Assembly: GCA_021811315.1 (NCBI GenBank)
Contig: JAJZPF010000006.1
Span: 1 to 64,000, forward strand
Direction: 5' to 3'
Origin: a bacterium
Lineage (GTDB): Bacteria; Elusimicrobiota; Elusimicrobia; Elusimicrobiales; UBA9959
Length of the DNA: 64,000 nt
A program made the translations under genes and the position numbers. Shown piece by piece: positions 1,825 to 20,419 of the stretch. The notes under the pieces are model-generated. The model was not told the origin of the DNA. It worked only from the letters and a program-made list of their open reading frames with translations, and ran no database searches. The number at the start of each line of letters is the position of its first letter. The first letter of the stretch is position 1.

Positions 1825-3759
1825 CTAAACGAGCTGCTTAATCTTCGCGACCAGGTCCGTTATCGATTCGCTCAATTTGGCGCAATCTATATATGTATCT
1901 AAACTCAGGCGTTTTTTCCCGTCGGGAGAGGACCAGAACACCCTGAACAGCAGGCCCTCGTCGGTGATCTCGGCATGGGCGCCGAGCGGGGTGGCGCAGC
2001 CGCCGCCCATCTCGGCCAGGAACAGGCGCTCGGCTTCCGCGCAGATGCGCGTGCGCGCGTGGTCCAGCCTGCGCGCCAGCCGCATCACCGGCTGGTCGGA
2101 GGCGACGGCCTCGACGACTATCACGCCCTGCCCGGGAGCGGGCACCACTTCGTCGGCGGTGAAGACCTGGCTTATCCGCTTTTCCAGGCCCAGGCGCTTG
2201 AAAGCGGCGCAGGCCACCACGATAGCGTCGCAGTCCCCGCGGTCCAGCTTCGCCAGCCTGGTATCCATATTCCCCCGCAGCGGGGCGAAGACGGCGTCCG
2301 GCCGCAGCTTCGCTATCTGGTAGCGCCGCCTGAGCGAGCCGGTGGCTATCCTGGGGTTGGGCGGGAGGTCCGCCAATTTTGCGCCGCCGCGGGTAACCAG
2401 CGCGTCGCGCGGGTCCTCGCGCTTCAAAAAGGAAGCTACCATCAGGCCTTCGGCGAGCTCACCCGGGAGGTCTTTGAGGGAATGCATCGCCAGCCTGCTG
2501 CCGCCGTCGATCAGGTCGCGCTCTATCTCTTTCACGAAAAGCCCTTTGCCGTCCTTGGCGATGAGCTTTTCCACGGAATCGTCCAGGAAGATATCACCGC
2601 TGGTCTTGATGATCTTCTGGTCTATCGCCACGCCTTCTTTCCTGACCAGGCCGCAGATAATATCTGTCTGCACTAGAGCCAGCCGGGAGCCGCGCGTGCC
2701 TATGACCAGGGGCACTTTGAAATCGGCGGGGTCGACCGAGGAGTCGTGATTGAATTTGTCCCACATCTCGGCGCCTTTGGTTTCTATTATCCCGCGCGCC
2801 TTATTTATCTCGTCGGAGAGCTGCGCCAGGTTCTCGGCGACTATCCGCTCCAGGTCGTCGATATTGTAAAGGTAGACGTTGGAAAGCTGGCCGGCTTCGG
2901 GCTGGATATTGCGCGGGACGGAAATATCTACGAGGAAAACCGGGTTCCCGTGCCGCAGGCTCATTACCTTGCTCATCATGTCTTTTGTGAGCACCGGTTC
3001 CTTGGCGGAGGTGGAAACAAGGACCACGTCGGCGCCCGTAAGCGCTTCATCGAGCTTCTCCCAGGGGAGGCACTGCGCGGAGAACTTTGCGGCCAGCTCC
3101 TGCCCGTTGGCGAGGGTGCGGTTGATAACGGTAATTGCGGCCTTCTTTTCCGAGAAAGCCAGCGCGGCGGCTTCGGCCATCTCGCCGGCGCCCAGCAGAA
3201 GAACTTTGGCCTTGTCCAGGTCGCCGAAGATCCTGCCGGCGTACTGCACGGCGACAAAAGCTACCGAGCGGCCGCCCTGGCTGATCTTGGTATTGGCGCG
3301 CACATGCTTGCCCACGCCGATCGCGCGCTGAAAAAGCATATTGGTCAGGCGGCCGGTGACACCGGCGGTTTTAGCGCCGTAGTAGGAATCCTTGAGCTGG
3401 CCGAGGATCTCGTTCTCCCCCACCACCATCGAGTCCAGCCCGCAGGCCACGTTCAAAAGATGGTCCAGCGCCTCTTTGCCGGTCTTGCTGTACAGATGGC
3501 CGCCTCCCTGCTTATTCGCATCGTACTGCGACGGGTCGCTCAGGAAACCTATCAGGGAGGCCTCGCAATCCTTCTTTTTCCCGACGGCGTAAAGGTCCAC
3601 GCGGTTGCAGGTGGAGACCCACACCAGCTCCTCCGCGGCAAGGCCTCCGGAAAGCATGGCTTTGAGCAGCAGGCGCTTGCGCTCCGGGCTTATGCTGAAA
3701 GCCTCGCGCGTTTCCACCGAGCAGGTTTTATGAGAGAGGCCGACGAGGACTAGTTCCAT
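1825..3759 (-). CDS. hemA-hemC: Fused glutamyl-tRNA reductase / hydroxymethylbilane synthase (HemA-HemC)
   Basis: This 644-residue protein joins two heme-pathway enzymes. Residues 1 to about 345 are glutamyl-tRNA reductase: catalytic STCNR with Cys51, the MVVGENEILGQLK block near residue 115 and an NADPH Rossmann domain with LLGAGEMA. It makes glutamate-1-semialdehyde from Glu-tRNA. From about residue 350 (VIGTRGSRLALVQT) to the end is porphobilinogen deaminase, with HSLKDLP and the dipyrromethane-attachment motif GGGCATPLGAHA (Cys588). Both halves are close to normal family length and carry their key residues, so both should be active. HemL, the enzyme between the two steps, is encoded at 38.5-39.8 kb. 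It lies 17 bases behind the HemX-like gene, and the ResB-CcsA-HemX-HemA order resembles heme/cytochrome assembly operons in other bacteria. No strong Shine-Dalgarno precedes the start. Confidence 0.93.
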   Translation of the reverse strand: MELVLVGLSHKTCSVETREAFSISPERKRLLLKAMLSGGLAAEELVWVSTCNRVDLYAVGKKKDCEASLIGFLSDPSQYDANKQGGGHLYSKTGKEALDHLLNVACGLDSMVVGENEILGQLKDSYYGAKTAGVTGRLTNMLFQRAIGVGKHVRANTKISQGGRSVAFVAVQYAGRIFGDLDKAKVLLLGAGEMAEAAALAFSEKKAAITVINRTLANGQELAAKFSAQCLPWEKLDEALTGADVVLVSTSAKEPVLTKDMMSKVMSLRHGNPVFLVDISVPRNIQPEAGQLSNVYLYNIDDLERIVAENLAQLSDEINKARGIIETKGAEMWDKFNHDSSVDPADFKVPLVIGTRGSRLALVQTDIICGLVRKEGVAIDQKIIKTSGDIFLDDSVEKLIAKDGKGLFVKEIERDLIDGGSRLAMHSLKDLPGELAEGLMVASFLKREDPRDALVTRGGAKLADLPPNPRIATGSLRRRYQIAKLRPDAVFAPLRGNMDTRLAKLDRGDCDAIVVACAAFKRLGLEKRISQVFTADEVVPAPGQGVIVVEAVASDQPVMRLARRLDHARTRICAEAERLFLAEMGGGCATPLGAHAEITDEGLLFRVFWSSPDGKKRLSLDTYIDCAKLSESITDLVAKIKQLV

Positions 3760-4656: not shown

Positions 4657-5451
4657 TCAGCTCCTGCCGTAACTGTGCAGGCCGGACATCAGATAGTTTA
4701 CCCCGAAGTAAGTGAACATGACCAGCAGGAAGCCCCACAGCATGAGGCTCGCGAACTTTTTATCCTTCCAGCCTTTGGTCCTTCTAAGGTGTATCGCCAC
4801 CGCGTAATAGAGCCAGGTGATAAGGGACCAGGTTTCCTTAGGGTCCCAGGACCAGTAGGAGCCCCAGGCCGAGTTCGCCCAGACCGCCCCGGTGATTATC
4901 CCCATGGTAAGCAGCCAGAATCCCACCAGGCAGGCCCTGTAGACCAGCGATTCAAGGCTTTTCTTCTTGTCCGCATGCTCGGCTTTGCCCATGAAGGAAA
5001 AAACCGCGGCTCCGAGGAAAGAGAGAAGCAGCGCGCCGTAGCCGGTCATGACGGTGCTCACGTGGATAAGCAGCCAGTTGGACTGCAGCGCCGGGACCAG
5101 CGGCGAAATGCTCGATTCCAGGAAGGAAGCCCCCCCCATGCTCAGCAGGGCCACCACGGCCGTCCAGGGCGCCAGCCATTCCAGCTCGCGGCCGGAAAAA
5201 TGCTTGAACAGGAGGTAAGCGCCGACGAAAGCCCAGATGAGGAAGATCAGGGATTCGTATTGGTTGGAAAGAGGGGCCCTTCCCGCCAGGTACCAGCGCG
5301 CGCCGATATGGTAGGTAGTGGAAAGCCAGGCGGCCAGGAGCGCGAGGACGGAGTACTTGAATTTCCAGGGCTTGTTCAAAAGAAAGCCGAGCAGGGTAGC
5401 CGCCATGGCGGCGCCGTAAAAGACAAAAGCAGCTTTAAGCGATATTTCCAT
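4657..5451 (-). CDS. ccsA: System II cytochrome c maturation protein CcsA-type (heme exporter/ligase half)
   Basis: The 264-residue polytopic protein carries the family's tryptophan-rich heme-presenting motif WGSYWSWDPKETWS at about residues 196-209, followed by two further helices and conserved histidines (for example in AIHLRR and LHSYG). CcsA (also called CcsB or ResC depending on the lineage) moves heme across the inner membrane and, with ResB/Ccs1, ligates it to CxxCH apocytochromes outside. Its ATG overlaps the resB stop by one base (TAATG), which indicates translational coupling. It is one of two such systems in the window; the other is at 9.7-11.6 kb. Confidence 0.92.
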   Translation of the reverse strand: MEISLKAAFVFYGAAMAATLLGFLLNKPWKFKYSVLALLAAWLSTTYHIGARWYLAGRAPLSNQYESLIFLIWAFVGAYLLFKHFSGRELEWLAPWTAVVALLSMGGASFLESSISPLVPALQSNWLLIHVSTVMTGYGALLLSFLGAAVFSFMGKAEHADKKKSLESLVYRACLVGFWLLTMGIITGAVWANSAWGSYWSWDPKETWSLITWLYYAVAIHLRRTKGWKDKKFASLMLWGFLLVMFTYFGVNYLMSGLHSYGRS

Positions 5452-6506
5452 TATTTCATCTCCTTCCAGAACGCCATAGAGAGGCCGATCATCAGCGCGG
5501 CGAAGCCGGCGTAGATGAAGAAAACGCTTGGGTCCTTGGAAACCTGTATGCTCGAATAATTAGGATTTTTAGGGTCGTAGCCGGACTGGTAGAACCGGTA
5601 GCCCTTGTAGGCGGCCGGGGAATTGACGTTGATAAGTTTCTCCAGTTTTTCAACGCCATTCTCGAGGAAGGCGATGCGGCTCTCGAACTGCTTTACCCTG
5701 CCGGGGTTATACTCGTAAACATACCGCAGCCCGTCGGCGGTCTGCACGCCGTGGAAGTCGGGGTGGTTGGCGAAGAGGTAGCTGGCCTTCGCGGCCTTCG
5801 GGGCTTTTGCCCCGGCCGGCTTTATAGCGAGGGCCGGGTTTTCCCTGGCTTCATTGACGGTCATCGGGCCTTCATTGCCGATGGAGAAATTAGGATAAAA
5901 GTTCAGGACGGACAGGTCCGCGCCGGTGGAAGCGAAATGCGCGTCCTTGCCCGGGACCACTTCAACGGACTCTACCAGGTCTTCGCCTTCATGCCCCGGG
6001 TCTTCGCACTTTTTAAGCACGTGGATGATGTGCTTCTCCTGGTCCCAGTAATGTATCTGGAAGCTTTTAAGCGTGACCTCGAAAGGCAAGGCCTCGGAAA
6101 CCCCGGAGTCGCCGTCGAACTCGCTCCTGACCTGCCCGGTCTCGAGCGCCATGATGCCGCGCACCGCGAAAAGGCCGTGCACCGCGCCGCCGAAGAACAT
6201 CAGCGTAACGCCCACGTGGCTCAGGAAAACGCCGGGGCGCAGCTTAAGGACTTTCCACTGCTTTACCGTGCAGGCGACCATGTTAAGGGCGCCGCCGGCC
6301 ATCAGGGCCATGAACCAGAAGCTGGAGAACACGTTATTGAAACGCAGCGCGACTACCAGGTTCCCGCCGAGGCGGCCGAACATCTGCTGGTAAGCCTCCA
6401 GAGCTTCGCCCTGGGGTATCACCCCGCCGAGCAGGAAAGCGATCAGCATCAGCGCTGATAGAGTGAAAAAGAACTTTATAGAGGCGAGTTTGTTTATGAG
6501 TTTCAT
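5451..6506 (-). CDS. resB: System II cytochrome c maturation protein ResB-type
   Basis: The 351-residue protein has three hydrophobic helices in the N-terminal third (first at about residues 8-28), a large hydrophilic domain with the LNFYPNFS block, and a last helix near the C-terminus (FFIYAGFAALMIGLSMAF), the layout of ResB/Ccs1. It receives heme from CcsA and holds apocytochrome during ligation outside the inner membrane. I start it at 6506 rather than at an upstream ATG because AAGGA lies just before this codon and the hydrophobic segment begins directly after it. An extended -10 promoter at 6588-6596 fits an mRNA for resB-ccsA-hemX-hemAC. Confidence 0.9.
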   Translation of the reverse strand: MKLINKLASIKFFFTLSALMLIAFLLGGVIPQGEALEAYQQMFGRLGGNLVVALRFNNVFSSFWFMALMAGGALNMVACTVKQWKVLKLRPGVFLSHVGVTLMFFGGAVHGLFAVRGIMALETGQVRSEFDGDSGVSEALPFEVTLKSFQIHYWDQEKHIIHVLKKCEDPGHEGEDLVESVEVVPGKDAHFASTGADLSVLNFYPNFSIGNEGPMTVNEARENPALAIKPAGAKAPKAAKASYLFANHPDFHGVQTADGLRYVYEYNPGRVKQFESRIAFLENGVEKLEKLINVNSPAAYKGYRFYQSGYDPKNPNYSSIQVSKDPSVFFIYAGFAALMIGLSMAFWKEMK

Positions 6507-6587
6507 CGCAGGGTCCTTAGTAAGAAAGCCGCTGGTGCAGACGCTGGAACCGGTAGGCAAGGGTATGCAGAGTCCCTATTATTGTAA

Positions 6588-6613: not shown

Positions 6614-8290
6614 TCACAAGTACCTTGAAAGCGAGAGGCTCCAGTTCGCGAAACCGTTGACGTAATAACTGTCCTGTTTCTGGAACTTAAGATTGAGAAG
6701 GGTTTTGCCTACCGTGTAACTGCCGTTAAGGATCACATTGCTCCCCCGCGCCCCGCGCGTCATTTCTCCGGAAAAGTCGAAACCCTCGCCCGGAGAATAA
6801 TTCGCCGAGAGGCTAAGCATCTTGCCGCGGCTCAAGCCGTTCACCTCGTCCCGGCTCCAGATCAGGCTATAGGCCCCCGTAAGTTTAAGAGTCTCAAGCG
6901 GCGAAGACTGGACCTGCGCCGTAAGGCTGCGGTTAAGAGTGACGGCCCCGTCGGCTAAATTCCGACTGCGTGTGAAAACATAATTGCCTGACAGGTCCGT
7001 GGCCGGCGCCGGGTGCAGGCCAAGCCCTCCGCCCGCCGAATACTGCCTGTTGCCGCCGGGAACGTTGCGGAGCGGGCGCGCGCCCCAGGTGGCCGCCTCG
7101 CCGTAGATATCGTAAAGGGGACGGGGAGTGAGGGTAAGGCGCTGCCGCAGCCCGTCGGAAAGGGTGGCGCCGCCCAGTGGGTCGTAGGCCCAGGAGCCGT
7201 CCGCGCTCATCCGGAGCGCCGCCTTGCCGGAACGCGTGCGCCACTCCCCGGTAGCCGAATCGGAAACGCTTTGCCGCTCCTCGAAACCGCTTTTGCGCAG
7301 ATAGGAAAGCTGGTTATCCACGCGGCCGCGGCGCAGCATGGCGAAGGAGGTCAGCGTGAGCGAGTTCTGCGAGGAATCCGCGCGCCTGACGCTGCTCCTG
7401 GAGTATTCGCCGCTATATCCCAGAAAGGATTCCAGATACCTGGTCCTGAAACGCCGGGTGGCCATATAGGCGCTGGCCGTTTTGGAATTTTGCTTTACGG
7501 CCCCGGCGGACGATTCGGTCCCTTCGCCCTGGTAAGAAGCGCGCAGAGAGGCCCTTTCAAGACGGCCTTTCATATCCGTAAAATTCAGTTCCGCGTCGGC
7601 ACGGGTAGATTCCGTACGCGTGTTGGACAATTGAGACAGCTTGTCCTCGGTGCGGCTCCGTTCCCGGCGGTACTGCAGGCGCAGCGGCCCCCTGGCATAA
7701 GCGCCCTGCTCGGTACGTATATAAGTATCCTGCAGCACGGAGGAATCCGGGGAAGGGTCCCTGCGCTGCAGACGGGAGTTCGACACGCTGAAACTGGGCA
7801 GCCTGGGCAGCGCCAGTCCCCAGGTGAGCCCCTGGTTGGTATCCACAAGATTACGGGCTGCCGGCGGCGACCCCCAGACCTGCTCCGTCCTGACCCTGGA
7901 GAGGCTGGGCGCCAGGGTTACATAACGCCTGAGACCCGGGGGAAGCAGCATCCCATGGAAGGAGTAGCCCAGTATTTTCTGGTTCGCGTCGGAGGTGGTT
8001 ACGGTCTGGGAAAGGCTCTTTCCCTGAATGAAGTTCAGAGAGGCCCCGCCTTCCCCTACCATGGGACTGCCCAGCGGCCCCTCCATGGAATAGGCATAAG
8101 ACTGCGAGAACCCCGACGTCTCGCGGGTCCCCTCGGTGGTCTTCACTTTAAAATTGTCGTAGTTCCAATTTAGCAGGCCGGAGCGCATATACTGCGCGCG
8201 CGCGGAAGCGCAAAAAAAAATAATAAGTAAGGAACAAAGGCCGCAGAACAGAGGAGATATCTTCCGAGTTTCCCCACCCCCATCTTTCAT
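6614..8290 (-). CDS. Predicted outer-membrane beta-barrel protein of unknown family
   Basis: The 558-residue product starts with a charged tail and a hydrophobic signal segment ending in ASARA (about residue 32). After that it is dominated by alternating polar/hydrophobic stretches of 8-12 residues separated by short turns rich in S, G, D and R, the pattern of a large outer-membrane barrel. The C-terminus reads LSLSRYL, close to the aromatic-ended last strand of such proteins. No family motif is recognised and it carries no CxxCH site. It is the last gene of a seven-gene overlapping operon (ATGA overlap with the radical SAM gene) that also encodes an 11-heme cytochrome, so it may be the porin of a second electron conduit; this is inference. 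A secretion or glycan-related barrel is equally possible. Confidence 0.7.
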   Translation of the reverse strand: MKDGGGETRKISPLFCGLCSLLIIFFCASARAQYMRSGLLNWNYDNFKVKTTEGTRETSGFSQSYAYSMEGPLGSPMVGEGGASLNFIQGKSLSQTVTTSDANQKILGYSFHGMLLPPGLRRYVTLAPSLSRVRTEQVWGSPPAARNLVDTNQGLTWGLALPRLPSFSVSNSRLQRRDPSPDSSVLQDTYIRTEQGAYARGPLRLQYRRERSRTEDKLSQLSNTRTESTRADAELNFTDMKGRLERASLRASYQGEGTESSAGAVKQNSKTASAYMATRRFRTRYLESFLGYSGEYSRSSVRRADSSQNSLTLTSFAMLRRGRVDNQLSYLRKSGFEERQSVSDSATGEWRTRSGKAALRMSADGSWAYDPLGGATLSDGLRQRLTLTPRPLYDIYGEAATWGARPLRNVPGGNRQYSAGGGLGLHPAPATDLSGNYVFTRSRNLADGAVTLNRSLTAQVQSSPLETLKLTGAYSLIWSRDEVNGLSRGKMLSLSANYSPGEGFDFSGEMTRGARGSNVILNGSYTVGKTLLNLKFQKQDSYYVNGFANWSLSLSRYL

Positions 8291-9750
8291 TCTTCAGCCT
8301 TGAGCAGCGCCTTGCGCACGGATTCGGGCATGCCCTTGCCGTCGCCAAGGCCTTTCATCTGGTCTTTAAGATAGGAGTGGCTGGCCAGCAGCCGGGTCAC
8401 CGCCATCATATATTTCCGCTTTTCGCCCGACATTTTATCGAGGCCCTGCAGGCGCTTCATGTAAAATTCGCGGAAAGCCCCGGTCAGTTCTTTTTCCACC
8501 TCGGCGCGGGTCATGGCGAGCGGCTTTACCACTGCCTTCACCAGGTTATAGTCCGCATAATCACGCGTCTCGATATATGGTTCCACATCTTTGTACAGGT
8601 CCGAATAAGGCCAGGGCGCTATTGCCATGAAAAAAGCCATGTCGGGATTATAGTCGAGCGCCGCTTTCACCGTGTTGCGGATAGATTCGGGGGTCTCGTC
8701 GGGCATGCCGAGGACGAAGGCCGTCTCGCTGATGATCCCCGCCTCGTTGATCAGGCGTATGGCCTCGCGGGAAGTCTCCACCTTCTGGTCTTTCTTGAAG
8801 AGGTCGAGGGTTTTCTGCGACTGGGACTCCACGCCGATATAGATATGCACGATACCGGCGCGGCGCATATCGGCCATCCACGCCTTGTCGCGCACGATAT
8901 CGTCGGCGCGGGTCTCCAGCATCAGTTCCACGCCGGGCTTGCGCGTTATGAGCAGGTCCAGGATGCGGCGCCAGCGGTCCCGGTCCACCGTCGGGGTTTC
9001 GTCGGAGAGCATGGCGATGGAAACGCCGAAGTCGCGGTTAAGGCGCTCGAGCTCGTTCACGAAAGACTCGGGGGAGCGGGCGCGCCAATGCTTGCCCCAG
9101 AACTTCTGCTGGCTGCAGAAAGAGCAGGCCTGCTCGCAGCCGCGCGAAGAAGAAAGAATGGCCGATATGGAGCCCGGGCGGGGCCGGAAAGTATAAGTCT
9201 TCCAGTCGAGCAACTCCCAGGCGGCGGGCAGGAGGTCAAGAACCGGCGCGTCGGGACGCAGGGGCCCGGCCGCCGCGGCCCCTTCGCTGTCGCGCCCGGC
9301 GACACCGGGAACATCCAGCGCTGTTTTGCCGGCGATAAGCCGGTCGAGAAGTTCGGGCCCGGTGGTCTCTCCCTCGCCGCGGACAACGAAATCCACCGGG
9401 GAGCCTGGCGCTTCAAGGATCTCCTTCCACATGAAAGTCGGGTGGACGCCGCCCAGGAAAGTTCCAATGCGGGAACTGACGCGCTTGGCCGAGGCCAGCA
9501 CCAGGATGGCGTCATTGACCGTAGCCGTAATGGCGGTGCAGCCCACAAAATCCGGGCGCGAGGCGCGTATTTTTTCTTCTATGTCAGCGTGCGTAGTGAA
9601 CAGCGACATAGCGTCGTAAATTTCCACTTCGTAGCCGGCTTTCACCAGGCCGCCGGCGGCGCAGACCAGGGAAAGCGGAACCCAGGTCCCGGCGGATTCC
9701 ACTACGCCGCAATGGTAGGGCGGGGTTAGAAGCAGGACTTTTGCTTTCAT
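8287..9750 (-). CDS. B12-binding-domain radical SAM enzyme
   Basis: The 487-residue protein has an N-terminal cobalamin-binding Rossmann-like domain (residues 1 to about 140, with GGVHPTFM and VDFVVRGEGE blocks normal for this class). A radical SAM domain with CEQACSFC (Cys205, Cys209, Cys212) follows, plus a C-terminal helical region. Members of this superfamily methylate unreactive carbons or rearrange rings (BchE-type cyclases, P- and C-methylases, hopanoid enzymes). The substrate cannot be read from sequence. Its ATG overlaps the stop of the second ccsA, and its stop overlaps the barrel start. That places it inside a cytochrome-biogenesis operon, so a modified heme, cytochrome peptide or lipid/glycan is the likely target. 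Confidence 0.9.
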   Translation of the reverse strand: MKAKVLLLTPPYHCGVVESAGTWVPLSLVCAAGGLVKAGYEVEIYDAMSLFTTHADIEEKIRASRPDFVGCTAITATVNDAILVLASAKRVSSRIGTFLGGVHPTFMWKEILEAPGSPVDFVVRGEGETTGPELLDRLIAGKTALDVPGVAGRDSEGAAAAGPLRPDAPVLDLLPAAWELLDWKTYTFRPRPGSISAILSSSRGCEQACSFCSQQKFWGKHWRARSPESFVNELERLNRDFGVSIAMLSDETPTVDRDRWRRILDLLITRKPGVELMLETRADDIVRDKAWMADMRRAGIVHIYIGVESQSQKTLDLFKKDQKVETSREAIRLINEAGIISETAFVLGMPDETPESIRNTVKAALDYNPDMAFFMAIAPWPYSDLYKDVEPYIETRDYADYNLVKAVVKPLAMTRAEVEKELTGAFREFYMKRLQGLDKMSGEKRKYMMAVTRLLASHSYLKDQMKGLGDGKGMPESVRKALLKAEE

Positions 9751-10583
9751 TTAAAATACTCCGTATGAAGCGAGCCGGTCACGAAAGGCACGGCGAAGAG
9801 AGTGAAAAGCGAGACGGCAAAACAGGCGGTCGTCAGCCAGGCCGCGCCGCGGCCGCGCAGACCGTGAAAGCGGCGCGCGTGCAGGGAAACGCCGAAAAGC
9901 AGCCAGGTAATTAAAGACCAGGTCTCCACCGGGTCCCAGGCCCAGTAGCGGCCCCAGGACTGGTCGGCCCAGATCGCGCCCGCGGCGATCATAATGCTCC
10001 AGAAGATAAAGCCGAAGCTGGTAAAGCGGTGGGCGTTCGCGTCCATAACCTCAAGAGACGGCAGGCGGGCGGACAGGCTCCAGCCGGGGCGGCTCTCTTT
10101 GACCAGGTAGAGCGCGGCGGCCCCGAAAGCTATGGTGAGCGAGCCCGCCGCTATTTTAGCGAACAGGATATGAAAGACCAGCCAGACGCCGCGCAAAGAT
10201 GGCGGCAGATAGCTGACGGAAGGATCGGTAAGAAGCCCGGCCGCCATAAGCAGGAAAGAGAGCGGCAGCACTAGCAGTCCGACAGGTTTCAGCCCGCCGC
10301 GCAAGCGGGAAATTACAAGGTAAAGAGCGACGGCCGCCAGAGCGTCGGAAGAAAGCACTTCGTAGCGGGTCATATAGGGGCCGTGCCCGACGACCCACCA
10401 GCGCAGAGCCAGCGCCGCTAAGTGAGGTACCAGGCCGAAGGCGGCCAGGCGTTCTCCGCGGAGCTGCCCTTTAGCGCTGCCGAAACAGGCCCCGGCGGCA
10501 AAGAACCAGGTGGCAAGGATATAAAAGAGCACAGCCGCCCAATGAAGTACGGCCTGCAGGGGAAGCCAGGCCTCAGCCGCCAT
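9747..10583 (-). CDS. ccsA: Second CcsA-type cytochrome c maturation protein
   Basis: The 278-residue polytopic protein carries WGRYWAWDPVETWS at about residues 210-223, the heme-presenting motif of CcsA, with flanking histidines (HARRFHG, SLHTEYF). It is clearly a paralogue of the protein at 4657-5451. I chose the ATG at 10583 because ACGGAGG lies six bases upstream; the longer reading frame adds an unlikely arginine-rich tail. It overlaps the preceding resB copy by 11 bases and the radical SAM gene by four. A second, operon-embedded maturation pair suggests that the 11-heme cytochrome encoded just upstream may need a dedicated ligase. Confidence 0.9.
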   Translation of the reverse strand: MAAEAWLPLQAVLHWAAVLFYILATWFFAAGACFGSAKGQLRGERLAAFGLVPHLAALALRWWVVGHGPYMTRYEVLSSDALAAVALYLVISRLRGGLKPVGLLVLPLSFLLMAAGLLTDPSVSYLPPSLRGVWLVFHILFAKIAAGSLTIAFGAAALYLVKESRPGWSLSARLPSLEVMDANAHRFTSFGFIFWSIMIAAGAIWADQSWGRYWAWDPVETWSLITWLLFGVSLHARRFHGLRGRGAAWLTTACFAVSLFTLFAVPFVTGSLHTEYFK

Positions 10584-11631
10584 AGTCGGCCTCCGTGGAG
10601 AAAGCGGCGCCGCGCGGCCGCGCGTAGATAAGCGCGGCCCCGAGAACACAGAGAAAAAATCCCAGATAGGCGGTCCAGGCGGCGCGCCCGCGTGAAAGAG
10701 AGATGCCGCTCCAGTACCGGAGGTCGGCCAGGCGCAGTTCGCCGCCGCCGAAACGCACGCTTTTCCCGGCCGGCAGCGGACCCTTATATACCACGGCCCC
10801 GCGCTCGCTCACCGCAGCTTCCACTGCCGGGTCCTTAAGAAAAAAACTCCCTCCGCCAAGGTCCGGCTTCAGGCTTAACTTCACCTGGTAGGCCGTAGTA
10901 GGAAAATCCGACCCGCCCACGGCCGGCCGGCCCTGCCTCTGCGGCCGGTCAAGCAGGAAATGGGTAAAGACTTCTTCACCGGCCGGGCGCTTAAGGCCCA
11001 CCGTTACGCTGTAGCCGTAATGCGGCGACTGGAAAACCGAAACACCGGACAGGGTCAGCGGCGAGTTGAGAGCAAGCCGCTCCTCCCTGGCCCCGTCGCC
11101 ATCCTCCACCAGGAGCAGGCTGGCAAAATCGCGCGGAGAGCCGTTCTCCCAGTAGTCGTGCGCCAGGCTGTTAAGGGTCAGGCGGAAAGGCGCGTTGAAA
11201 GACCCGGCCAGGCGGCCTTTTTCCACCAACAGTAATTCAGACTCGCCGCCGGAGAAGATTTCCCCCTCCATAAGCTGGAGGAAACCTCGCACTTCAAAAG
11301 CGTAGGCCCACAGCCCCGCAGAGATGATTAGTAAAAGGCCGGTATGAAGAGTAAGCGCTCCACAGCGCTGAAGGATAAGGGAAGAGGAATGCCGGTTTAG
11401 GTACAGTGAGCGAAGACTCCTCACCTGGAGACAAAGCGAGTAAACAAGGACAAGGGCAGCCGCCACAGCGGCAATCAGGAATACCGGAGAACCAAAAAAC
11501 GCGGAAGACTCCCCGTTCGCCCGGCCACCCAGGAAACCCGCGATACACAATACGGTAAAAGCCGCCATCAGTGACAGGACTGTACGCGGCGAGGCCGTGG
11601 CGCGCTTTAGCGCCGCTAATAGACGCCTCAC
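10573..11631 (-). CDS. resB: Second ResB-type cytochrome c maturation protein
   Basis: The 352-residue protein has N-terminal helices (about residues 17-36, 48-68, 92-112), a long extracytoplasmic domain and a final helix near residue 320, as in ResB/Ccs1. It is much diverged from the copy at 5451-6506; for example it has the periplasmic segment GVSVFQSPHYGYSVTVGL instead of the LNFYPNFS block. Its start overlaps the stop of the 11-heme cytochrome gene (ATGA), and its stop lies inside the next ccsA. It is probably the apocytochrome chaperone of the second System II ligase. Confidence 0.82.
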   Translation of the reverse strand: MRRLLAALKRATASPRTVLSLMAAFTVLCIAGFLGGRANGESSAFFGSPVFLIAAVAAALVLVYSLCLQVRSLRSLYLNRHSSSLILQRCGALTLHTGLLLIISAGLWAYAFEVRGFLQLMEGEIFSGGESELLLVEKGRLAGSFNAPFRLTLNSLAHDYWENGSPRDFASLLLVEDGDGAREERLALNSPLTLSGVSVFQSPHYGYSVTVGLKRPAGEEVFTHFLLDRPQRQGRPAVGGSDFPTTAYQVKLSLKPDLGGGSFFLKDPAVEAAVSERGAVVYKGPLPAGKSVRFGGGELRLADLRYWSGISLSRGRAAWTAYLGFFLCVLGAALIYARPRGAAFSTEADYGG

Positions 11632-13553
11632 GGGTCCATCCCACTGTTCATGTTATGGGTGGTGCAGCCCGAGGCCGTGCTGTAGCAGTTAGACTTGGAA
11701 TACCCGGTGGGAGTGGTTGCTTTCTTGAAGCCTGACAGAATTAACTTGTCACGGGCCCCCGCGCCGTTGTAATTATACGGCGCCGGATCGGAAGCATAAC
11801 CGATCAGGCGCGAACGCCGGCTGCCGTGCGGGACGACGACGTGGCAGGATACACAGGGGACGGTCAGCCCCTGGTTCTTCTGGTTGTGCTCCTTATGAAC
11901 GTTGTTCATAAAACTGGTTCCCGAATACATCGGGTGGCAGTTGAGGCAGAAGAGGCCCGCCGAGGTATTGGCGCCGCTGTTGCTACCGCCGGGGAAGTCA
12001 TCAAGCGTGTAAAGGGCGCCGCCCGACTTGGCGGGCCAGTATTTATTGGTCCCTTTCTTCATGCGCGCTATACTGGAGCCGTGCGGGCCCTTGGGCTCTC
12101 CCGCGGTATCCTCGCCGTGGCAGTCGGAGCAGTACATGGTCTGTGTACCGCGGCCTGCGGACCAGGGCGCCGACAGTTGCGCGGCAGCCAGGAGTTTGGG
12201 CGTTGTGCTTGCGGTCTGGCTGTTAAGATTGCGCAGCACCGGATGGGCGGAGCGGTTATTAGGGTTCATCTCCGTGGTCTGGTCCGTTATGCCCGCCGGG
12301 GGCGTAGTACCGAAAGCGTAAGAGGAGTGGCACTTGAGGCAAAGCTGGTACTCCTTATAGCCTGTGGTATTCGTGAACACCTGACGCGCATACGAAGCGG
12401 CCGGTATCCAGGCGGTAGTCCCGTAAGCAGGCTCTACGCCCCACTGCCCCAGCAGCACATTGGAGATCAGGTTGGTCGGAGCCGTGTGCGTCCCTGTTTT
12501 GGCCTGGTGCGGGTTATGGCAATCCTGGCACTCGGCGTGGCGGTTATTGGCCGGAGAGTAAGTAAAGTTAGTCCCGTTCTGTTCAGGATCCTTGTGTTTA
12601 GCGGAAACGGTTCCGGTAGGATGCTTATAAGTCTTGGCGAAAAGAGCCTGAATATTTTTTGCGCCCGTCAGCGGCGGGTTGCCGTGGCAGGTGTAGCAGG
12701 TAGCTTCCTCGGCCCCGGTCAACAGGTAGGCCTGGGTCGCGGAAGCCCCGTGGCTGCGGTGGCAGTTGCGGCAGGACCATTCTCCGACCGTGGTGGCCGT
12801 ATGACCGGCCGGAGTATAGGAAACGGCGGAAACCTGGTGAGCGCTGCCGGTGAAACCGCTTTTCACGTGGCAGGTGGTGCAGAGCGCGGCGCCCGTATTG
12901 GATTTTACAAGGAACTTTGTGAACTGGTCGTCATGCGGATCATGGCAGGAGGTGCACTCCACGCGGTTGGTAGCGCCGTATACCTTGACCTTGTCTCCGG
13001 CGGCGGGAAGCTGTATCTCCGGGTTAGTTCCGGGGGCGGTGGGAGGGCCCGCGCCGGGTTTGACGTCATAAAGCACCGGGTGGTCGTTGGAAAGATCCAG
13101 CCCCAAATTGGCCCCGGCGGAAAGCGAACCCGTTACCGCTATTGTGGCGGGAGAATTTCCCAGGTTGTAAACGCCGCCCAGAGCCGTCACCCCGTCGTGA
13201 CAGGAGAGGCATAATTTAGTGCGGGTGCCGGCCATTGCGCTCATCGCCGGTGCGGTCATTCCAAGGTAGTTGTTAATATAGTTGGAAGAATAGAAAGTAA
13301 AAGTCTGCACTGTCTGTGTCTTATTCCAGAGCGGGATATTCTCCCCCGTCTTGTGCGGGGTATGGCAGAAGACGCAGACCTGGTTCTCGGCGGAGGATTT
13401 GGGCCCCGTGGTGGCGCTGCCTACGGAGAGGTTGTGTTTTGAATTTATGATAGAGGCTGCGCGCGCCGGGTCCTGCAGCCAGAGCACGAACCCCGCGGCC
13501 GCCAGCAGGCAGGCGGGCTTTAAAACTTTTTTAATGCCATCGTGAAAGGTCAT
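11628..13553 (-). CDS. 11-heme c-type cytochrome, secreted
   Basis: The 641-residue protein has an N-terminal signal (hydrophobic residues about 12-32, ending near QDPARAAS) and 11 CxxCH motifs: CVFCH, CLSCH, CTSCH, CTTCH, CRNCH, CYTCH, CQDCH, CLKCH, CSDCH, CLNCH and CVSCH. Its first 200 mature residues repeat the plan of the tetraheme proteins at 16.6 and 17.5 kb: a KHNLS start, CxxCHTPHK, CLSCHDG, a DHPV segment, CTSCHDPH and a CxTCH end. The remaining seven hemes form a C-terminal extension without a membrane anchor. It should act in the periplasm or at the cell surface as an electron carrier. It overlaps the NHL gene upstream and resB downstream by four bases each. Confidence 0.93.
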   Translation of the reverse strand: MTFHDGIKKVLKPACLLAAAGFVLWLQDPARAASIINSKHNLSVGSATTGPKSSAENQVCVFCHTPHKTGENIPLWNKTQTVQTFTFYSSNYINNYLGMTAPAMSAMAGTRTKLCLSCHDGVTALGGVYNLGNSPATIAVTGSLSAGANLGLDLSNDHPVLYDVKPGAGPPTAPGTNPEIQLPAAGDKVKVYGATNRVECTSCHDPHDDQFTKFLVKSNTGAALCTTCHVKSGFTGSAHQVSAVSYTPAGHTATTVGEWSCRNCHRSHGASATQAYLLTGAEEATCYTCHGNPPLTGAKNIQALFAKTYKHPTGTVSAKHKDPEQNGTNFTYSPANNRHAECQDCHNPHQAKTGTHTAPTNLISNVLLGQWGVEPAYGTTAWIPAASYARQVFTNTTGYKEYQLCLKCHSSYAFGTTPPAGITDQTTEMNPNNRSAHPVLRNLNSQTASTTPKLLAAAQLSAPWSAGRGTQTMYCSDCHGEDTAGEPKGPHGSSIARMKKGTNKYWPAKSGGALYTLDDFPGGSNSGANTSAGLFCLNCHPMYSGTSFMNNVHKEHNQKNQGLTVPCVSCHVVVPHGSRRSRLIGYASDPAPYNYNGAGARDKLILSGFKKATTPTGYSKSNCYSTASGCTTHNMNSGMDP

Positions 13554-14596
13554 GGCTGTTTCTCCTTTAGGTACTGGAACACCTGCACGCGGGCGTTAAA
13601 AGTGTCTGCCACCAGCACGCGGTCTTTTTCATCTACGAAGACGCCGCCCGGCAGAGAGAACTCTCCGGGACGCGAGCCCTCACGGCCTACAAAAAGAAGC
13701 AGCCGGCCCGTCTGGTCGAAGATCTGTACAGCCTCCAGCGCCCCGTCTATGGAGTAGACATTCCCGTCTGAATCAAGCGCCACCCCCCTGGGCCGCGCCA
13801 TACGGCCCGGCCTGTCCCCGTTCTCGCCGAAAGCGGACAGAGGCTTGCCTTCCGGGGTCAATATCTGTATGCGGAAATTGCCGGAGTCGCAGACAAAAAG
13901 CCGCTTGGCCGCGGCGTCGAACCACATATAGGTAGGAAAATTAAATTCCCCCGCCTTCAGCCCGCGGCGGCCGAAGGAATAAAGAAACACCCCGTCGAGG
14001 CCATAGACCGCCACCCTGTGCTCGCGGGAGTCGGAAACGAAGAGCCTGCCGTCCCCGAGAGCGAGGGAAGCCGGCTGGCCCATCCCCTCCGGGTCCCCGC
14101 GCAGTTCCCAGAGATACCGGCCCTCGGCGTCCAGCGCGAAAACCTTACCCAGGGCGGAATCTGCCACAAAGATCTTACCATCCGGGGCGACCGTAACCGC
14201 GACCGGGCTGACGAATTTCGGCTTGCGGCCCTTAGGCAGCCATTCCGCCTTTTTTTTGACCTCATCGTAGCGCAGCACCCCGTGCGCGCCGGGATCGGCC
14301 ACATAGATCATCCCGCCGCCGGCGAAGATACCGGTCGGAGCCATAAGGCGCCGCGGGCTGGAATTAACCCCGGTGATCCCGAGAAGGAATTTCCAAACTT
14401 TCCCTATCCCGTGCCCTGCGGCGTTTCCAGGCATGCCGGAGTGGGCCTCCAGAAAGCGCAGGCGCGCCGGGGCGGGCGGCTCTGGCCATTCAAGAACGGC
14501 AGCGTCCGCAGCGGCCACTGTTAAAGGCGCGGGCCGGAGAAGAAAAAACGAAAAAATGGAAACAGAGATAAGCAGCGTGAGCGCTATCTTTTTCAT
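13550..14596 (-). CDS. Secreted NHL-repeat beta-propeller protein
   Basis: The 348-residue product has a signal peptide (about residues 1-28) and about six NHL blades, seen as repeated GxFxxPxGVAxDxxGxxYVxDxxNxRVQxF-like units such as the last one near residue 315. It is a close structural relative of the protein at 24336-25370, with matching ends (NARVQVFQYLKEK versus NRRVQIFQYLKKK). NHL propellers bind proteins or sugars and are often encoded beside secreted multiheme cytochromes. Here it overlaps both the ligase gene upstream and the 11-heme gene downstream by ATGA. A scaffold or chaperone role for extracellular cytochrome is inferred, not shown. Confidence 0.88.
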   Translation of the reverse strand: MKKIALTLLISVSIFSFFLLRPAPLTVAAADAAVLEWPEPPAPARLRFLEAHSGMPGNAAGHGIGKVWKFLLGITGVNSSPRRLMAPTGIFAGGGMIYVADPGAHGVLRYDEVKKKAEWLPKGRKPKFVSPVAVTVAPDGKIFVADSALGKVFALDAEGRYLWELRGDPEGMGQPASLALGDGRLFVSDSREHRVAVYGLDGVFLYSFGRRGLKAGEFNFPTYMWFDAAAKRLFVCDSGNFRIQILTPEGKPLSAFGENGDRPGRMARPRGVALDSDGNVYSIDGALEAVQIFDQTGRLLLFVGREGSRPGEFSLPGGVFVDEKDRVLVADTFNARVQVFQYLKEKQP

Positions 14597-16449
14597 TTCG
14601 CCCCCAGGCTGCGTAAAATTCTGGAGACTTCTTCATCGTCGGGATAAGCGCGCGCCAGCGGGACAAGCAGGCTCAAAGCTTCAGCTTTACGGCCGGCCCC
14701 GGCGGCGATCAGGCCCAGTTCCCGCTCCACGGCCGGGTTTCCGGGCATAGCTTCCAGAGAGTGGCGCAGCCAGCCCTCGGCTTCCGTATCCTGCCCCTGG
14801 CGACGGCTGATAAAGCCAAGAGTGGCAAAGGCCTCCGGGAATACGGGTTTAAGCTGGATAGCGGCGGCACACCAGCGCCTGGCGGAGACAAGATCGTCCT
14901 GTTCGAGGTAGGCAAGAGCCAGGTCGTAAGGGATATTCGGGTCCGAGCTCCGGCGCAGGGCCTCCGTCAGAGGCGCCACGGCCTCTCCCGGCCGTCCCTG
15001 CATCAAAAGCACATTCCCTTTAAAAAAGTGCGCTCTAGCGTGCATAGGCGCGGCGGCCGTAGCTTTCTCAAGGGCGGCTTCGGCCCTGGCCGGTTCATTG
15101 GACTGCACCGCGGCCAGCGCCCGGCCTACGAGGATATCGGATGCCTGAAGCCGCGCGACCGGGATGGCCGCGGCCAGGAGCAGGGCCGCCAGGGACCAGC
15201 GCAGGAAAGAGGCCTGGGGCGTCAGGTTCGGAACAGAGATCTGGCCGGATTCCGCCGCCGGGGCGGCGTTCAGCGCCAGGGCGAGCAGGAAAGCGCTGGC
15301 CGGAAGCTGCAGCGTAAGCCCCAGAAAGCCGTCGACAAGGAGGGCCAGCGCCGAGAGCGCCCAGGCGTCGCGCAGGAGAAACTCGCCCGGCGGCGAATTG
15401 CTGCGTGACTTCAGCCAGCCTTTAACAGACAGCACTATCAAAACAAAAAAAGCAGCCAGGCCTGACAAACCTGTATCGGCGGCGAGCTGCAGATAGGCAT
15501 TATGCGCGGAATGAGTGTAGGTCCAATACCTGCCCAGCGCAGCAGCGCCGGGCTTGCTCAATTCTACGGCCTGGAACTCAAGATACCTGTAATGATAACC
15601 ACCCGGCCCCTGGCCCAGCAGCGGCCGGTCTTTGACCATCTCGAGCGCGGCCTTCCACATAAGTTTCCTGCCGCTGAAAGCTTTGGTGTCGGTGCGCAGG
15701 GCGGAAGCGGCTCTCTCACGGACGAATATAAAGGTCCTGGAGCCAAAAGCCAGGTTGGAAACAAGAAAAAGCGCGCAAAAAACCGCCATCGTATTCAGCG
15801 CCGCGCGGCCTGAACCGGCGGTCTTTCTCCAGGCAAGCGCGAAAGCAGGCAGCCAGACGAGGGCGGCGGCAAGCCAGGCCGCGCGGCTGCCGGAAGACAG
15901 CAGGGCCGCGAAACAAAGAGCGCCGGCGGCGGCCCAGGCCCAGGCGCGCCAGCCTTTGGAGCGCGAAGACAAAGCGCAGAGCAGCGGCCCGCAGCCGGTA
16001 AGATAAGACGCCAGGAAATCGGGATTGCCTATAGTGGAAGGAGCGCCGGGGCCCTGCCAGAGCGCCCACGCGGAAACCGCGACCGCAGCCAGGGAGGCGG
16101 CCTGCGCCGCCGTTTCCGCGCCGTCAGGGCGCAGGATAAGGCTGGCGCCCAGGCCGGCCAAAGCAAAGCCGGCGAGCAAAGCGCAGGCCTCAAATCCGGC
16201 CGCGCGCCAGGGGCTGGCCGCATAAGAAAAGATCACAATAGCTAAGATGCCGGCCCAGGCCCAGGAACGAGCCCCCCAGCGCTGCCCGCCATCCGGCAGG
16301 GAAATACGGAGGGCAAGAGCGGCTAAAGCGCCTATGGTCAGAAGAACTGTTTTAGGAAGGAGAAACGCCTCAAAAGAGGCAGGCAGGAACCACACTGGAA
16401 GAACCAGCGCAAGGATCCAGAGTACAATTACTGCAGGTTGCTTTTTCAC
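14593..16449 (-). CDS. O-antigen ligase-family (Wzy/WaaL/PglL-like) membrane protein with TPR tail
   Basis: The 618-residue protein has about ten hydrophobic helices up to residue 420. A loop near residues 280-330 (GQGPGGYHYRYLEF, YTHSAHNAYLQLAADTG) contains the H-N motif of the Wzy_C/O-antigen ligase family. From about 435 to the end it carries tetratricopeptide repeats (AHFFKGNVLLMQGRPGEA and later units). The family joins lipid-linked glycans to lipid A or, in the PglL branch, to serine/threonine of secreted proteins. It opens the seven-gene operon and uses a GTG start with no Shine-Dalgarno; promoter spacing suggests a nearly leaderless mRNA. Co-transcription with secreted cytochromes makes protein O-glycosylation plausible, but a surface-polysaccharide role cannot be excluded. 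Confidence 0.83.
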   Translation of the reverse strand: MKKQPAVIVLWILALVLPVWFLPASFEAFLLPKTVLLTIGALAALALRISLPDGGQRWGARSWAWAGILAIVIFSYAASPWRAAGFEACALLAGFALAGLGASLILRPDGAETAAQAASLAAVAVSAWALWQGPGAPSTIGNPDFLASYLTGCGPLLCALSSRSKGWRAWAWAAAGALCFAALLSSGSRAAWLAAALVWLPAFALAWRKTAGSGRAALNTMAVFCALFLVSNLAFGSRTFIFVRERAASALRTDTKAFSGRKLMWKAALEMVKDRPLLGQGPGGYHYRYLEFQAVELSKPGAAALGRYWTYTHSAHNAYLQLAADTGLSGLAAFFVLIVLSVKGWLKSRSNSPPGEFLLRDAWALSALALLVDGFLGLTLQLPASAFLLALALNAAPAAESGQISVPNLTPQASFLRWSLAALLLAAAIPVARLQASDILVGRALAAVQSNEPARAEAALEKATAAAPMHARAHFFKGNVLLMQGRPGEAVAPLTEALRRSSDPNIPYDLALAYLEQDDLVSARRWCAAAIQLKPVFPEAFATLGFISRRQGQDTEAEGWLRHSLEAMPGNPAVERELGLIAAGAGRKAEALSLLVPLARAYPDDEEVSRILRSLGAK

Positions 16450-16595: not shown

Positions 16596-17240
16596 TTATT
16601 TATTGTGGCAGGTGATGCAGAGGGCGCTGTTGGTATTCGCCTTCACGAGCATCTTGGTGCCGGTGACCTTATTATGGGCATTGTGGCAGGAAGTGCACTG
16701 CACTTTGCTGGAACCGTCGAGCTTCACGGCGGCGTCAGCGGTGATGTCATTGTACTCGGAAGCCTGGTTCGCGCGCACCGTCGCGTAGTTGACCGCGATG
16801 GGGTGGCTGCCGCGCAGCCCGTTGCTCGGGTTAGCGCCGCCGGCCGCCGCGCCGTTGTTCCACATTATATTACCGGTGCCCACGTAAGTGGTGCCCGCGA
16901 CCGCCACCGTGCCGTCATGGCAGGACAGGCAGAGCGCCGATTTGCTGCCGGCCAGGCTGGCCGGGGAGGCGTCGTAAGCCGCGCCGTTGGGACCGGTGTA
17001 GCCGGCATTGGTATTGTACAGATTGTAGCTGTAGCTGCTCAGGGCATGCGCCCAGAGGGGCGTATTCATGAGGGGTTTATGGGGAACGTGACAGGCTTTA
17101 CAGGATTCAGTGACGCCCGCTATCGGCGTGCCGCCGGTAGCCGAGAAGTCGTGCTTGGAACCGGCGAAACCGGCAAGCGCCTGACCGACCGCGAAAACAC
17201 CGATGAGACCCGCGACCGCCGCTATATTGATCTTCTTCAT
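16596..17240 (-). CDS. Tetraheme c-type cytochrome, copy 1 (OmcE-like plan)
   Basis: The 214-residue protein has a signal peptide ending near QALA (residue 22) and four CxxCH motifs (CKACH, CLSCH, CTSCH, CITCH). The mature N-terminus GFAGSKHDFS, the CHVPHKP and CLSCHDGT blocks and the terminal CITCHNK place it among small doubled-CxxCH tetraheme cytochromes; extracellular filament-forming OmcE is a member of this broad group as I remember it. Extra histidines (KHDF, PHKP, WAHA, GSHP, NAHN) are enough for bis-His ligation of all four hemes. It differs from the copy at 17491-18135 at nine residues, over half in the signal and adjacent region. AAGGAG precedes the ATG, and the gene has its own terminator, so it is monocistronic. 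Confidence 0.93.
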   Translation of the reverse strand: MKKINIAAVAGLIGVFAVGQALAGFAGSKHDFSATGGTPIAGVTESCKACHVPHKPLMNTPLWAHALSSYSYNLYNTNAGYTGPNGAAYDASPASLAGSKSALCLSCHDGTVAVAGTTYVGTGNIMWNNGAAAGGANPSNGLRGSHPIAVNYATVRANQASEYNDITADAAVKLDGSSKVQCTSCHNAHNKVTGTKMLVKANTNSALCITCHNK

Positions 17241-17490: not shown

Positions 17491-18135
17491 TTATTTATTA
17501 TGACAGGTGATGCAGAGGGCGCTGTTGGTATTCGCCTTCACAAGCATCTTCGTGCCGGTCACCTTGTTATGGGCGTTGTGGCAGGTGGTGCACTGCAGTT
17601 TGCTGGAGCCGTCGAGCTTCACGGCGGCGTCCGCGGTGATATCATTGTACTCGGAAGCCTGGTTCGTGCGCACCGTAGCGTAGTTGACCGCTATGGGGTG
17701 GCTGCCGCGCAGGCCGTTGCTCGGGTTCGCTCCGCCGGCCGCCGCGCCGTTGTTCCACATTATGTTGCCGGTGCCCACGTAAGTGGTGCCCGCGACCGCC
17801 ACCGTGCCGTCATGGCAGGACAGGCAGAGCGCCGATTTGCTGCCGGCCAGGCTGGCCGGGGAGGCGTCGTAAGCCGCGCCGTTGGGGCCGGTGTAGCCGG
17901 CATTGGTATTGTACAGGTTGTAGCTGTAGCTGCTCAGGGCATGCGCCCACAGTGGCGTATTCATGAGGGGTTTATGGGGAACATGACAAGCTTTACAGGA
18001 TTCAGTGACGCCCGCTATCGGCGTACCGCCCGAGGCCGTGAAGTCATGCTTGGAACCGGCGAAACCGGCCAGCGCCTGACCGACAGCGAGCGTACCGATG
18101 ATGCCCGCGACTAACGCTATATTAATTTTCTTCAT
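17491..18135 (-). CDS. Tetraheme c-type cytochrome, copy 2 (OmcE-like plan)
   Basis: This is a 214-residue near-duplicate of the gene at 16596-17240, with the same length, the same four heme motifs (third one CTTCH instead of CTSCH) and about 96% protein identity by my count of nine differences. AAGGAG lies at good spacing before the ATG, and a separate terminator follows. The upstream region is unlike that of copy 1 and carries two copies of a 14-bp palindrome (18201-18214, 18304-18317), so the two genes are probably expressed under different conditions. It should be exported by Sec and matured by one of the System II ligases. Confidence 0.93.
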   Translation of the reverse strand: MKKINIALVAGIIGTLAVGQALAGFAGSKHDFTASGGTPIAGVTESCKACHVPHKPLMNTPLWAHALSSYSYNLYNTNAGYTGPNGAAYDASPASLAGSKSALCLSCHDGTVAVAGTTYVGTGNIMWNNGAAAGGANPSNGLRGSHPIAVNYATVRTNQASEYNDITADAAVKLDGSSKLQCTTCHNAHNKVTGTKMLVKANTNSALCITCHNK

Positions 18136-18398: not shown

Positions 18399-18896
18399 TT
18401 ACAGCTTATGACAGGTAAGACAGAGAGAGGTCTGGGAGCCGGAGACTTTAAAATTACCGGCGCTGTCCCTGTCGTGGCAGGAAAGACAGGTAACTTTATT
18501 GTCGGAAAGGCGGATCCCGGGATTCATCGCCGGGTCATTGTAATCGTCCGGGTGGTCCCGCATGACACGCGCGTAGTCGATGCCGACGGGATGGCTCGCC
18601 GAGCCCTCGCCGTGCGAGGGGCCGTCGTAGCCGGCGTTCCCGGCATATGAACTGTCTACCGGGGCTATAGTTCCGTCGTGGCAGGAAAGGCAGGAGAACA
18701 CGCCCTGGGACATGGGAGAACTTGCCGCGTAAAAATCCGAATCCCCGGGAGTCGCTGCGGCGCGGCTGCAAGGGCGCCTCTCCCGGACCGAGTCCCGGAG
18801 ATTAGCCGGAAACCTGGTCTTTTTGCCGCTATAGAAGACAAACAGAAAGATAGGCAGCAAAAGAAGTGTCAGTCTTAGCAGGTTCTTCAGTTTCAT
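18399..18896 (-). CDS. Triheme cytochrome derived from the tetraheme family
   Basis: The 165-residue product aligns with the last three hemes of the tetraheme proteins: CLSCHDGT, a GSASHPVGIDYARVMRDHPDDYNDP segment matching the GSHPIAVNYATVRANQASEYND segment, CLSCH and terminal CLTCHKL. The first heme motif is missing; in its place is PCSRAAATPGD. The N-terminus has a strongly hydrophobic stretch (LLRLTLLLLPIFLFVF) without a clear cleavage site, so it may stay anchored. I start at 18896 because the longer frame begins inside a consensus promoter (18931-18959). Either it is a specialised anchored member or a decaying duplicate; the three remaining motifs are intact. Confidence 0.8.
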   Translation of the reverse strand: MKLKNLLRLTLLLLPIFLFVFYSGKKTRFPANLRDSVRERRPCSRAAATPGDSDFYAASSPMSQGVFSCLSCHDGTIAPVDSSYAGNAGYDGPSHGEGSASHPVGIDYARVMRDHPDDYNDPAMNPGIRLSDNKVTCLSCHDRDSAGNFKVSGSQTSLCLTCHKL

Positions 18897-18930
18897 ACGC
18901 GGGTTCCGAAAGTATATATTTCTACGGAAT

Positions 18931-18959
18931 GTTATAACAGACGCTTTCAGGTTTGTCAA
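18931..18959 (-). promoter_or_regulatory. Strong sigma-70 promoter of the triheme cytochrome gene
   Basis: On the minus strand a perfect -35 TTGACA (18959-18954), a 17-bp spacer and -10 TATAAC (18936-18931) with a TGT extension are present. The predicted leader to the ATG at 18896 is about 28 nt. This is the closest match to consensus I found in the window. Confidence 0.75.
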
Positions 18960-20331: not shown

Positions 20332-20419
20332 ATTTCCTCCGAATCGTCCCGTTGTTTGGTAACCCATGCGCTGACTTCTCTATGCCGCGCATTTTTTAAA
20401 CCCAGGTCCTTTTGTCCGG

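Follow-up and report, generated by a model that had tools for sequence, protein, structure and literature searches.

A cassette of ResB, CcsA and a BchE-related radical SAM enzyme in a nanowire-type cytochrome operon of an Elusimicrobiota genome, and its possible role in heme tailoring

The window analyzed here is a stretch of 64,000 nucleotides from an incomplete Elusimicrobiota metagenome-assembled genome (MAG; 2.67 Mb, 63% complete), and its minus strand carries seven overlapping genes at positions 6614-16449, encoding an O-antigen ligase-like protein, an NHL propeller, an 11-heme c-type cytochrome, ResB, CcsA, a B12-binding radical S-adenosylmethionine (SAM) enzyme and a predicted outer membrane barrel. 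We propose that this is an operon for an extracellular cytochrome of the OmcE (nanowire) type which has acquired a heme-tailoring cassette, ResB-CcsA-radical SAM, and that heme is altered before it is exported and attached, a proposal to which we would give an even chance. An earlier note on the window had treated all seven genes as one system. The interesting unit is the three-gene cassette, which is smaller and far more widely spread than that first reading could see. That reading had also missed that the radical SAM protein is a relative of the porphyrin cyclase BchE, and that in the genomes this protein is tied more closely to the heme exporter/ligase than to the cytochrome.

The operon and its optional cassette

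The boundaries and overlaps of the seven open reading frames were as first noted, with 4, 4, 4, 11, 4 and 4 bases shared at the successive junctions, and Pfam agreed with the families assigned to them. The 11-base overlap uses an internal ATG of the CcsA gene at 10583, and a GTG at 10649 is likewise open as an alternative start. We infer translation of all seven genes as a single unit. From the upstream end the genes are:

14593..16449, minus strand: Wzy_C (O-antigen ligase-like) membrane protein with a TPR tail; 618 aa, GTG start; PF04932 at 6e-20, plus TPRs
13550..14596, minus strand: NHL beta-propeller, secreted; 348 aa; PF01436 at 7e-23
11628..13553, minus strand: 11-heme c-type cytochrome; 641 aa, exactly 11 CXXCH motifs; Pfam Paired_CXXCH
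10573..11631, minus strand: cassette ResB (System II cytochrome c synthase subunit); 352 aa, GTG start; PF05140 at 5e-20
9747..10583, minus strand: cassette CcsA/CcsB (heme exporter, heme ligase subunit); 278 aa from the internal ATG; PF01578 (Cytochrom_C_asm) at 2e-34
8287..9750, minus strand: B12-binding radical SAM enzyme, BchE relative; 487 aa; PF02310 (B12-binding) and PF04055 (Radical_SAM)
6614..8290, minus strand: predicted outer-membrane-type beta-barrel; 558 aa; AlphaFold2 and Foldseek

The 11-heme protein is homologous to OmcE over residues 28-231 (PDB 7tfs, E=6.5e-37; 9yuq, 7e-29), and the NHL gene precedes the cytochrome gene in nearly all the Elusimicrobiota loci retrieved. The barrel protein has no match in Pfam or NCBIfam, and what had been noted as an unknown barrel was upheld by an AlphaFold2 model with about 28 strands (pLDDT 78.9), the Foldseek neighbours of which were LptD, MtrB and TonB receptors with E values around 1e-7. 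With regard to a comparison with the porin-cytochrome (Mtr/Pcc) systems, MtrB was one among many barrels matched, with a TM score of 0.42. We propose that the modelled barrel could serve the cytochrome as an outer membrane conduit or as its export pore. The NHL propeller, the 11-heme cytochrome and the barrel are the conserved core of the nanowire operon.

Among 295 sampled Elusimicrobiota genomes, 12 encoded a protein closely related to the 11-heme cytochrome. The radical SAM gene was absent in nine of the 12, and in those of the nine with readable downstream sequence the barrel gene followed directly after the cytochrome gene. The trio ResB-CcsA-radical SAM was placed exactly between the cytochrome and barrel genes in the window and in the loci L014 (genome G018), L015 and L081, and in G018 a cassette-bearing and a cassette-less form are present on one and the same contig. 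Since cytochrome-barrel loci thus occur with or without the trio between them, it behaves as an inserted, optional cassette. The nine cassette-less genomes led us to reject the idea that the seven genes constitute a single conserved machine, as the earlier note had it, and the ligase was found in only two of 88 radical SAM loci, namely the window and L034. From the suggested biogenesis of a modified extracellular cytochrome, what survives is an extracellular-cytochrome operon with a dedicated ResB/CcsA pair. The ligase, which has a Wzy_C domain (PF04932) of the O-antigen ligase or O-oligosaccharyltransferase type, is an optional part that may glycosylate an exported protein.

The full gene order nevertheless recurs in L034, a locus from a distant MAG, as ligase-NHL-11-heme cytochrome-ResB-CcsA-(small membrane protein)-radical SAM-barrel, where three of the junctions overlap by 4 bases. 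Synteny was proposed in the earlier note as one way to check the unit, and the outcome is divided: the trio travels as a block, but the radical SAM and ligase genes are found only occasionally beside the cytochrome. With the cassette moving as a block and the seven-gene order recurring, the unit is not due to chance.

Kinship of the radical SAM enzyme to BchE and its partnership with CcsA

The window radical SAM protein scored 365 bits with TIGR02026 (BchE) and 138 bits with the next family, while the other members of its clade scored 392-429 bits, all of them below the 481-bit equivalog cut-off. The cysteines of the CxxxCxxC motif (C205, C209 and C212), which are the [4Fe-4S] ligands, are invariant across 23 sequences, and conservation extends to the SAM-binding region and to the B12 domain. 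An N-terminal YHxGxExAGxW, W183, E342, W380-P381 and Y401-N402 are common to genuine BchE and the clade, and were not present in four comparison radical SAM proteins. In the tree, BchE and the clade group together with a support of 99.7/99, and the genuine BchEs form their own branch (100/100). From these sequences the radical SAM protein appears to be a sister lineage of BchE, or else BchE arises within the clade; the joint grouping is firm and the order is weak. By the same comparison the clade enzyme and BchE probably act on one class of substrate by one class of chemistry.

With a profile built from the clade, its members (above about 510 bits) stand apart from the other B12-binding radical SAM proteins of the same genomes (at most 375 bits). 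Clade genes were found in four of the 295 Elusimicrobiota genomes, in 11 of 345 genomes from the phylum of a Desulfarculales MAG and in 55 of 346 from the phylum of a Nitrospirae MAG, as well as in Planctomycetes, Actinomycetota, Myxococcota (Anaeromyxobacter), one Bacillota MAG and one ANME-2 MAG, so that the clade spans about nine phyla, although MAG binning errors may affect individual cases. Profile matches were present in 17 of 347 genomes from the phylum of an Aminicenantes MAG, two of the 17 being genuine BchE. These two are the weakest above-threshold matches of that Acidobacteriota survey (473-476 bits, genomes G1111 and G1138); the locus from G1111 (L204) falls within BchE on the tree, and both genomes carry BchM. 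BchM was above its cut-off in none of the 30 clade genomes searched and present in both genomes with genuine BchE. Chlorophyll-type synthesis by the clade enzyme was ruled out on this absence.

The cassette CcsA carries the WWD motif WGRYWAWDPVETWSLITW and scores 159.9 bits with TIGR03144 (CcsB equivalog), under the 187.6 cut-off. The ResB domain (PF05140) and the CcsA WWD domain (PF01578) are both over cut-off in adjacent genes, which is the architecture of System II, and the window genome has three ResB loci. In the seed genomes a CcsA gene lies at most 12 kb from 24 of 28 clade genes and at most 2 kb from 16 of them, the remaining four being on contigs shorter than 11 kb, compared with none of 26 other B12-binding radical SAM genes of the same genomes within 12 kb (Fisher, 1.5e-11). 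Over the 88 loci, the genes found within 9 kb were CcsA in 63, ResB in 54, a cytochrome of five or more hemes in 48 and NHL in 28; CcsA was within 2 kb in 45.

The earlier note had considered the cassette ResB/CcsA pair a dedicated copy, and this was borne out by the CcsA tree. Here 46 cassette CcsAs from several phyla form a single clade (support 0.95, with one non-cassette sequence inside), which is distinct from the CcsAs that these genomes otherwise contain and which tracks the radical SAM gene across phyla. The second CcsA of the window groups with the housekeeping copies, and so does the CcsA on contig C48. The radical SAM and CcsA distances were correlated (Mantel r 0.50, reached in 0 of 2000 permutations). 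Genome relatedness inflates figures of association and correlation of this kind, but vertical descent is unlikely to be the sole cause of the radical SAM-CcsA association given its spread over many phyla.

In other phyla a small membrane protein, in which His-Asp, Arg and Lys are invariant, is often encoded between the CcsA and radical SAM genes (for example L018:2441-2878, L030:9628-9999 and L184:8602-8976); it is not present in the window. It has a weak CopD match in seven of 16 members (best 4e-4) and no significant Foldseek match (best E 0.98), and a HemJ-like identity is at most conceivable; a UPF0093/HemJ gene for comparison was not found in the eight genomes searched. At some loci (L171, L177 and L184 in Nitrospirota, and L079 in G063) CcsA and the BchE-like gene are separated by one or two additional B12-binding radical SAM genes, and L171 and L184 also carry a LuxE-like acyl-protein synthetase (carboxylate-activating). 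These extra proteins are compatible with a more elaborate tailoring. Giant open frames with 55 and 51 CXXCH motifs lie beside the BchE-like gene in loci of the Anaeromyxobacter type (L026:11630-19147 and L028:3653-11692).

Possible roles of the cassette

A modification of heme or a heme precursor before export best explains why a BchE relative is inherited together with a private heme exporter/ligase and without BchM. The radical SAM enzyme would use SAM and cobalamin to modify heme, or the immediate porphyrin precursor, in the cytoplasm, most likely at a propionate side chain, where a hydroxyl, a keto group, an olefin or a closed ring could be formed as BchE does at C13. For BchE itself, hydroxy- and keto-intermediates at the C13 propionate precede ring closure in a reaction that employs SAM and cobalamin and an oxygen derived from water (PMC13142503). 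The private CcsA/ResB would then export the modified heme and link it, by thioether bonds at the CXXCH motifs, to the multiheme cytochrome that the same operon encodes, and the altered hemes may change the potential or the packing within the extracellular wire. The wider claim, that a widespread and horizontally spread cassette makes a new covalent heme, an altered heme c, for cytochromes of extracellular electron transfer by a BchE-like reaction and that BchE shares ancestry with a heme-tailoring enzyme, is put forward more tentatively, at slightly less than an even chance.

Several points weigh against heme tailoring. Seven clade genes (L155, L156, L172, L194, L196, L197 and L198) have no CcsA within 9 kb despite a contig of sufficient length; in L155 and L156 two clade radical SAM genes are about 2 kb apart. 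The 11-heme cytochrome was examined and no feature was found that marks which heme would be altered. The clade itself, as opposed to BchE nested inside it, has a support of 17/55, and many of the surveyed genomes are incomplete MAGs. Finally, the cassette has no obvious BchM-like methyltransferase, and therefore a full ring closure of the BchE type is unlikely and an oxidation of the propionate is favoured.

An alternative would be that the radical SAM enzyme modifies the apocytochrome polypeptide, for instance by C-methylation or cross-linking, prior to export by Sec, with ResB/CcsA being present for the sake of the many hemes. The characterized B12-binding radical SAM enzymes are mostly methylases, several of them acting on peptides, and a cytochrome is co-encoded at many loci. 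However, the nearest relative, BchE, is a porphyrin enzyme, and the neighbouring cytochromes vary from four to more than 50 hemes with little sequence in common. The Nitrospirota loci are particularly informative in this respect, since CcsA is near in 27 of 39 and a cytochrome of at least five hemes in only 12 of 39; with CcsA being the commoner partner, heme is favoured over the cytochrome polypeptide as substrate. We regard polypeptide modification as unlikely. It is slightly less likely still that the private ResB/CcsA is adapted to an unusual heme-binding motif or to a high throughput, while the radical SAM enzyme belongs to an unrelated pathway (lipid, hopanoid or quinone). Copies of CcsA specific for a motif do have a precedent in Wolinella, where CcsA homologs serve CX2CK and CX15CH, and near the C-terminus of the 11-heme cytochrome a pair of Cys residues, NCYSTASGCTTH, is conserved outside the CXXCH motifs. 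A search for an unusual heme-binding motif in this protein was nevertheless negative, all 11 being ordinary CXXCH, and the co-inheritance of CcsA and the radical SAM gene, together with their presence or absence as a block, makes an unrelated role of the latter unlikely.

The tie to CcsA could also be accounted for, with no need of a new cofactor, if the radical SAM protein were a chaperone that passes normal heme to the private CcsA, and a heme chaperone with the radical SAM fold is known in HemW. Yet HemW is related to HemN and not to BchE, and in a catalyst one would expect what is seen here, namely conserved cysteines for the [4Fe-4S] cluster together with a conserved SAM-binding region and B12 domain, so we consider a chaperone the least probable of these three functional alternatives, if by very little. 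A chance operon of unrelated genes, finally, could be argued from the rarity of the ligase (two of 88 loci) and from the nine of 12 Elusimicrobiota genomes where the 11-heme cytochrome has no cassette, but it is highly improbable, as the seven-gene order recurs in the distant L034 and the cassette-CcsA statistics speak against it; for the core and the cassette it is contradicted, and for the ligase alone chance is still conceivable.

If heme tailoring is correct, there is a branch of cytochrome c maturation in which a modified heme is installed, and for cassette-bearing organisms the nanowire structures and redox models built on plain heme c would need checking. BchE, a key enzyme in making bacteriochlorophyll, would gain a relative, probably acting on porphyrins, in non-phototrophs, and studies of its origin would not have to presuppose that phototrophy was there first. 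The cassette would also supply candidate genes for unusual cytochromes such as cytochrome 579 of Leptospirillum, which has a CXXCH motif and a covalent, modified heme, and whose reduced alkaline pyridine spectrum at 567 nm fits no known heme (PMC8126622). Cytochrome 579 is a monoheme protein unrelated to the 11-heme cytochrome and is a lead only.

Genomic surroundings and comparison with known systems

The run of genes continues past the barrel, where a second ResB/CcsA pair begins 53 bases downstream, with a HemX-like gene and a fusion of hemA and hemC beyond it. The fused gene (1825-3759, minus strand) encodes a 644-aa protein that unites glutamyl-tRNA reductase (HemA) with porphobilinogen deaminase (HemC), and it adjoins the HemX-like gene and the housekeeping pair. 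At the upstream border of the operon, a hairpin with a T-run separates the ligase gene from the preceding 4-heme cytochrome gene, and such an element follows each of the two OmcE-like tetraheme genes listed below.

4657..6560, minus strand: housekeeping-type second CcsA (4657-5451) and ResB (5451-6560), by Pfam; outside the cassette
16596..17240, minus strand: 4-heme OmcE-like cytochrome, candidate filament subunit and upstream neighbour; 214 aa; 7tfs 4e-12, 9yuq 7e-13
17491..18135, minus strand: second 4-heme OmcE-like cytochrome copy, with 205 of 214 residues the same as in the first

A third, more distant relative of the tetraheme cytochromes is encoded at 18399-18959 with a TTG start. Farther upstream are a 14-heme and other multiheme cytochromes, one of which (28401-30269, minus strand) is fused to a membrane domain of the cytochrome b561 type; it is CbcL-like by architecture and likely the inner membrane point of electron entry from quinol to cytochrome. 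With these OmcE-like, multiheme and b561-fused cytochrome genes upstream, the whole region resembles a locus for extracellular electron transfer. A pair of adjacent dual-specificity/tyrosine phosphatase-like proteins is encoded within the cytochrome region (19564-21232, minus strand).

In a literature search, which covered few subscription papers, no BchE-like enzyme was found described together with CcsA, ResB or multiheme cytochromes; this does not prove novelty. BchE, the anaerobic oxidative cyclase of Mg-protoporphyrin IX monomethyl ester, resembles the clade enzyme in its B12-binding radical SAM architecture, its signature residues and the joint clade, and differs in that the clade enzyme scores below the cut-off (365-429 against 481 bits), occurs in genomes without BchM and is linked to CcsA/ResB and multiheme cytochromes rather than to bacteriochlorophyll genes. 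The likeness to the OmcE nanowire of Geobacter (7tfs) is one of homology, which covers the four hemes at the N-terminus of the 11-heme protein and the two upstream tetraheme proteins; the 11-heme protein differs by seven extra hemes and by its place beside an NHL propeller and an outer membrane barrel. Dedicated heme lyases such as NrfEFG and the Wolinella CcsA copies are similar in being private heme-attachment machines for one cytochrome, but they serve an unusual binding motif and not an altered heme, and we know of none with a radical SAM partner. With System II cytochrome c biogenesis (ResB/CcsA, or CcsBA) the cassette shares both subunits and the WWD motif, as read from the genes, and it departs from it in being a separate subfamily, additional to the housekeeping copies and co-inherited with the radical SAM enzyme.

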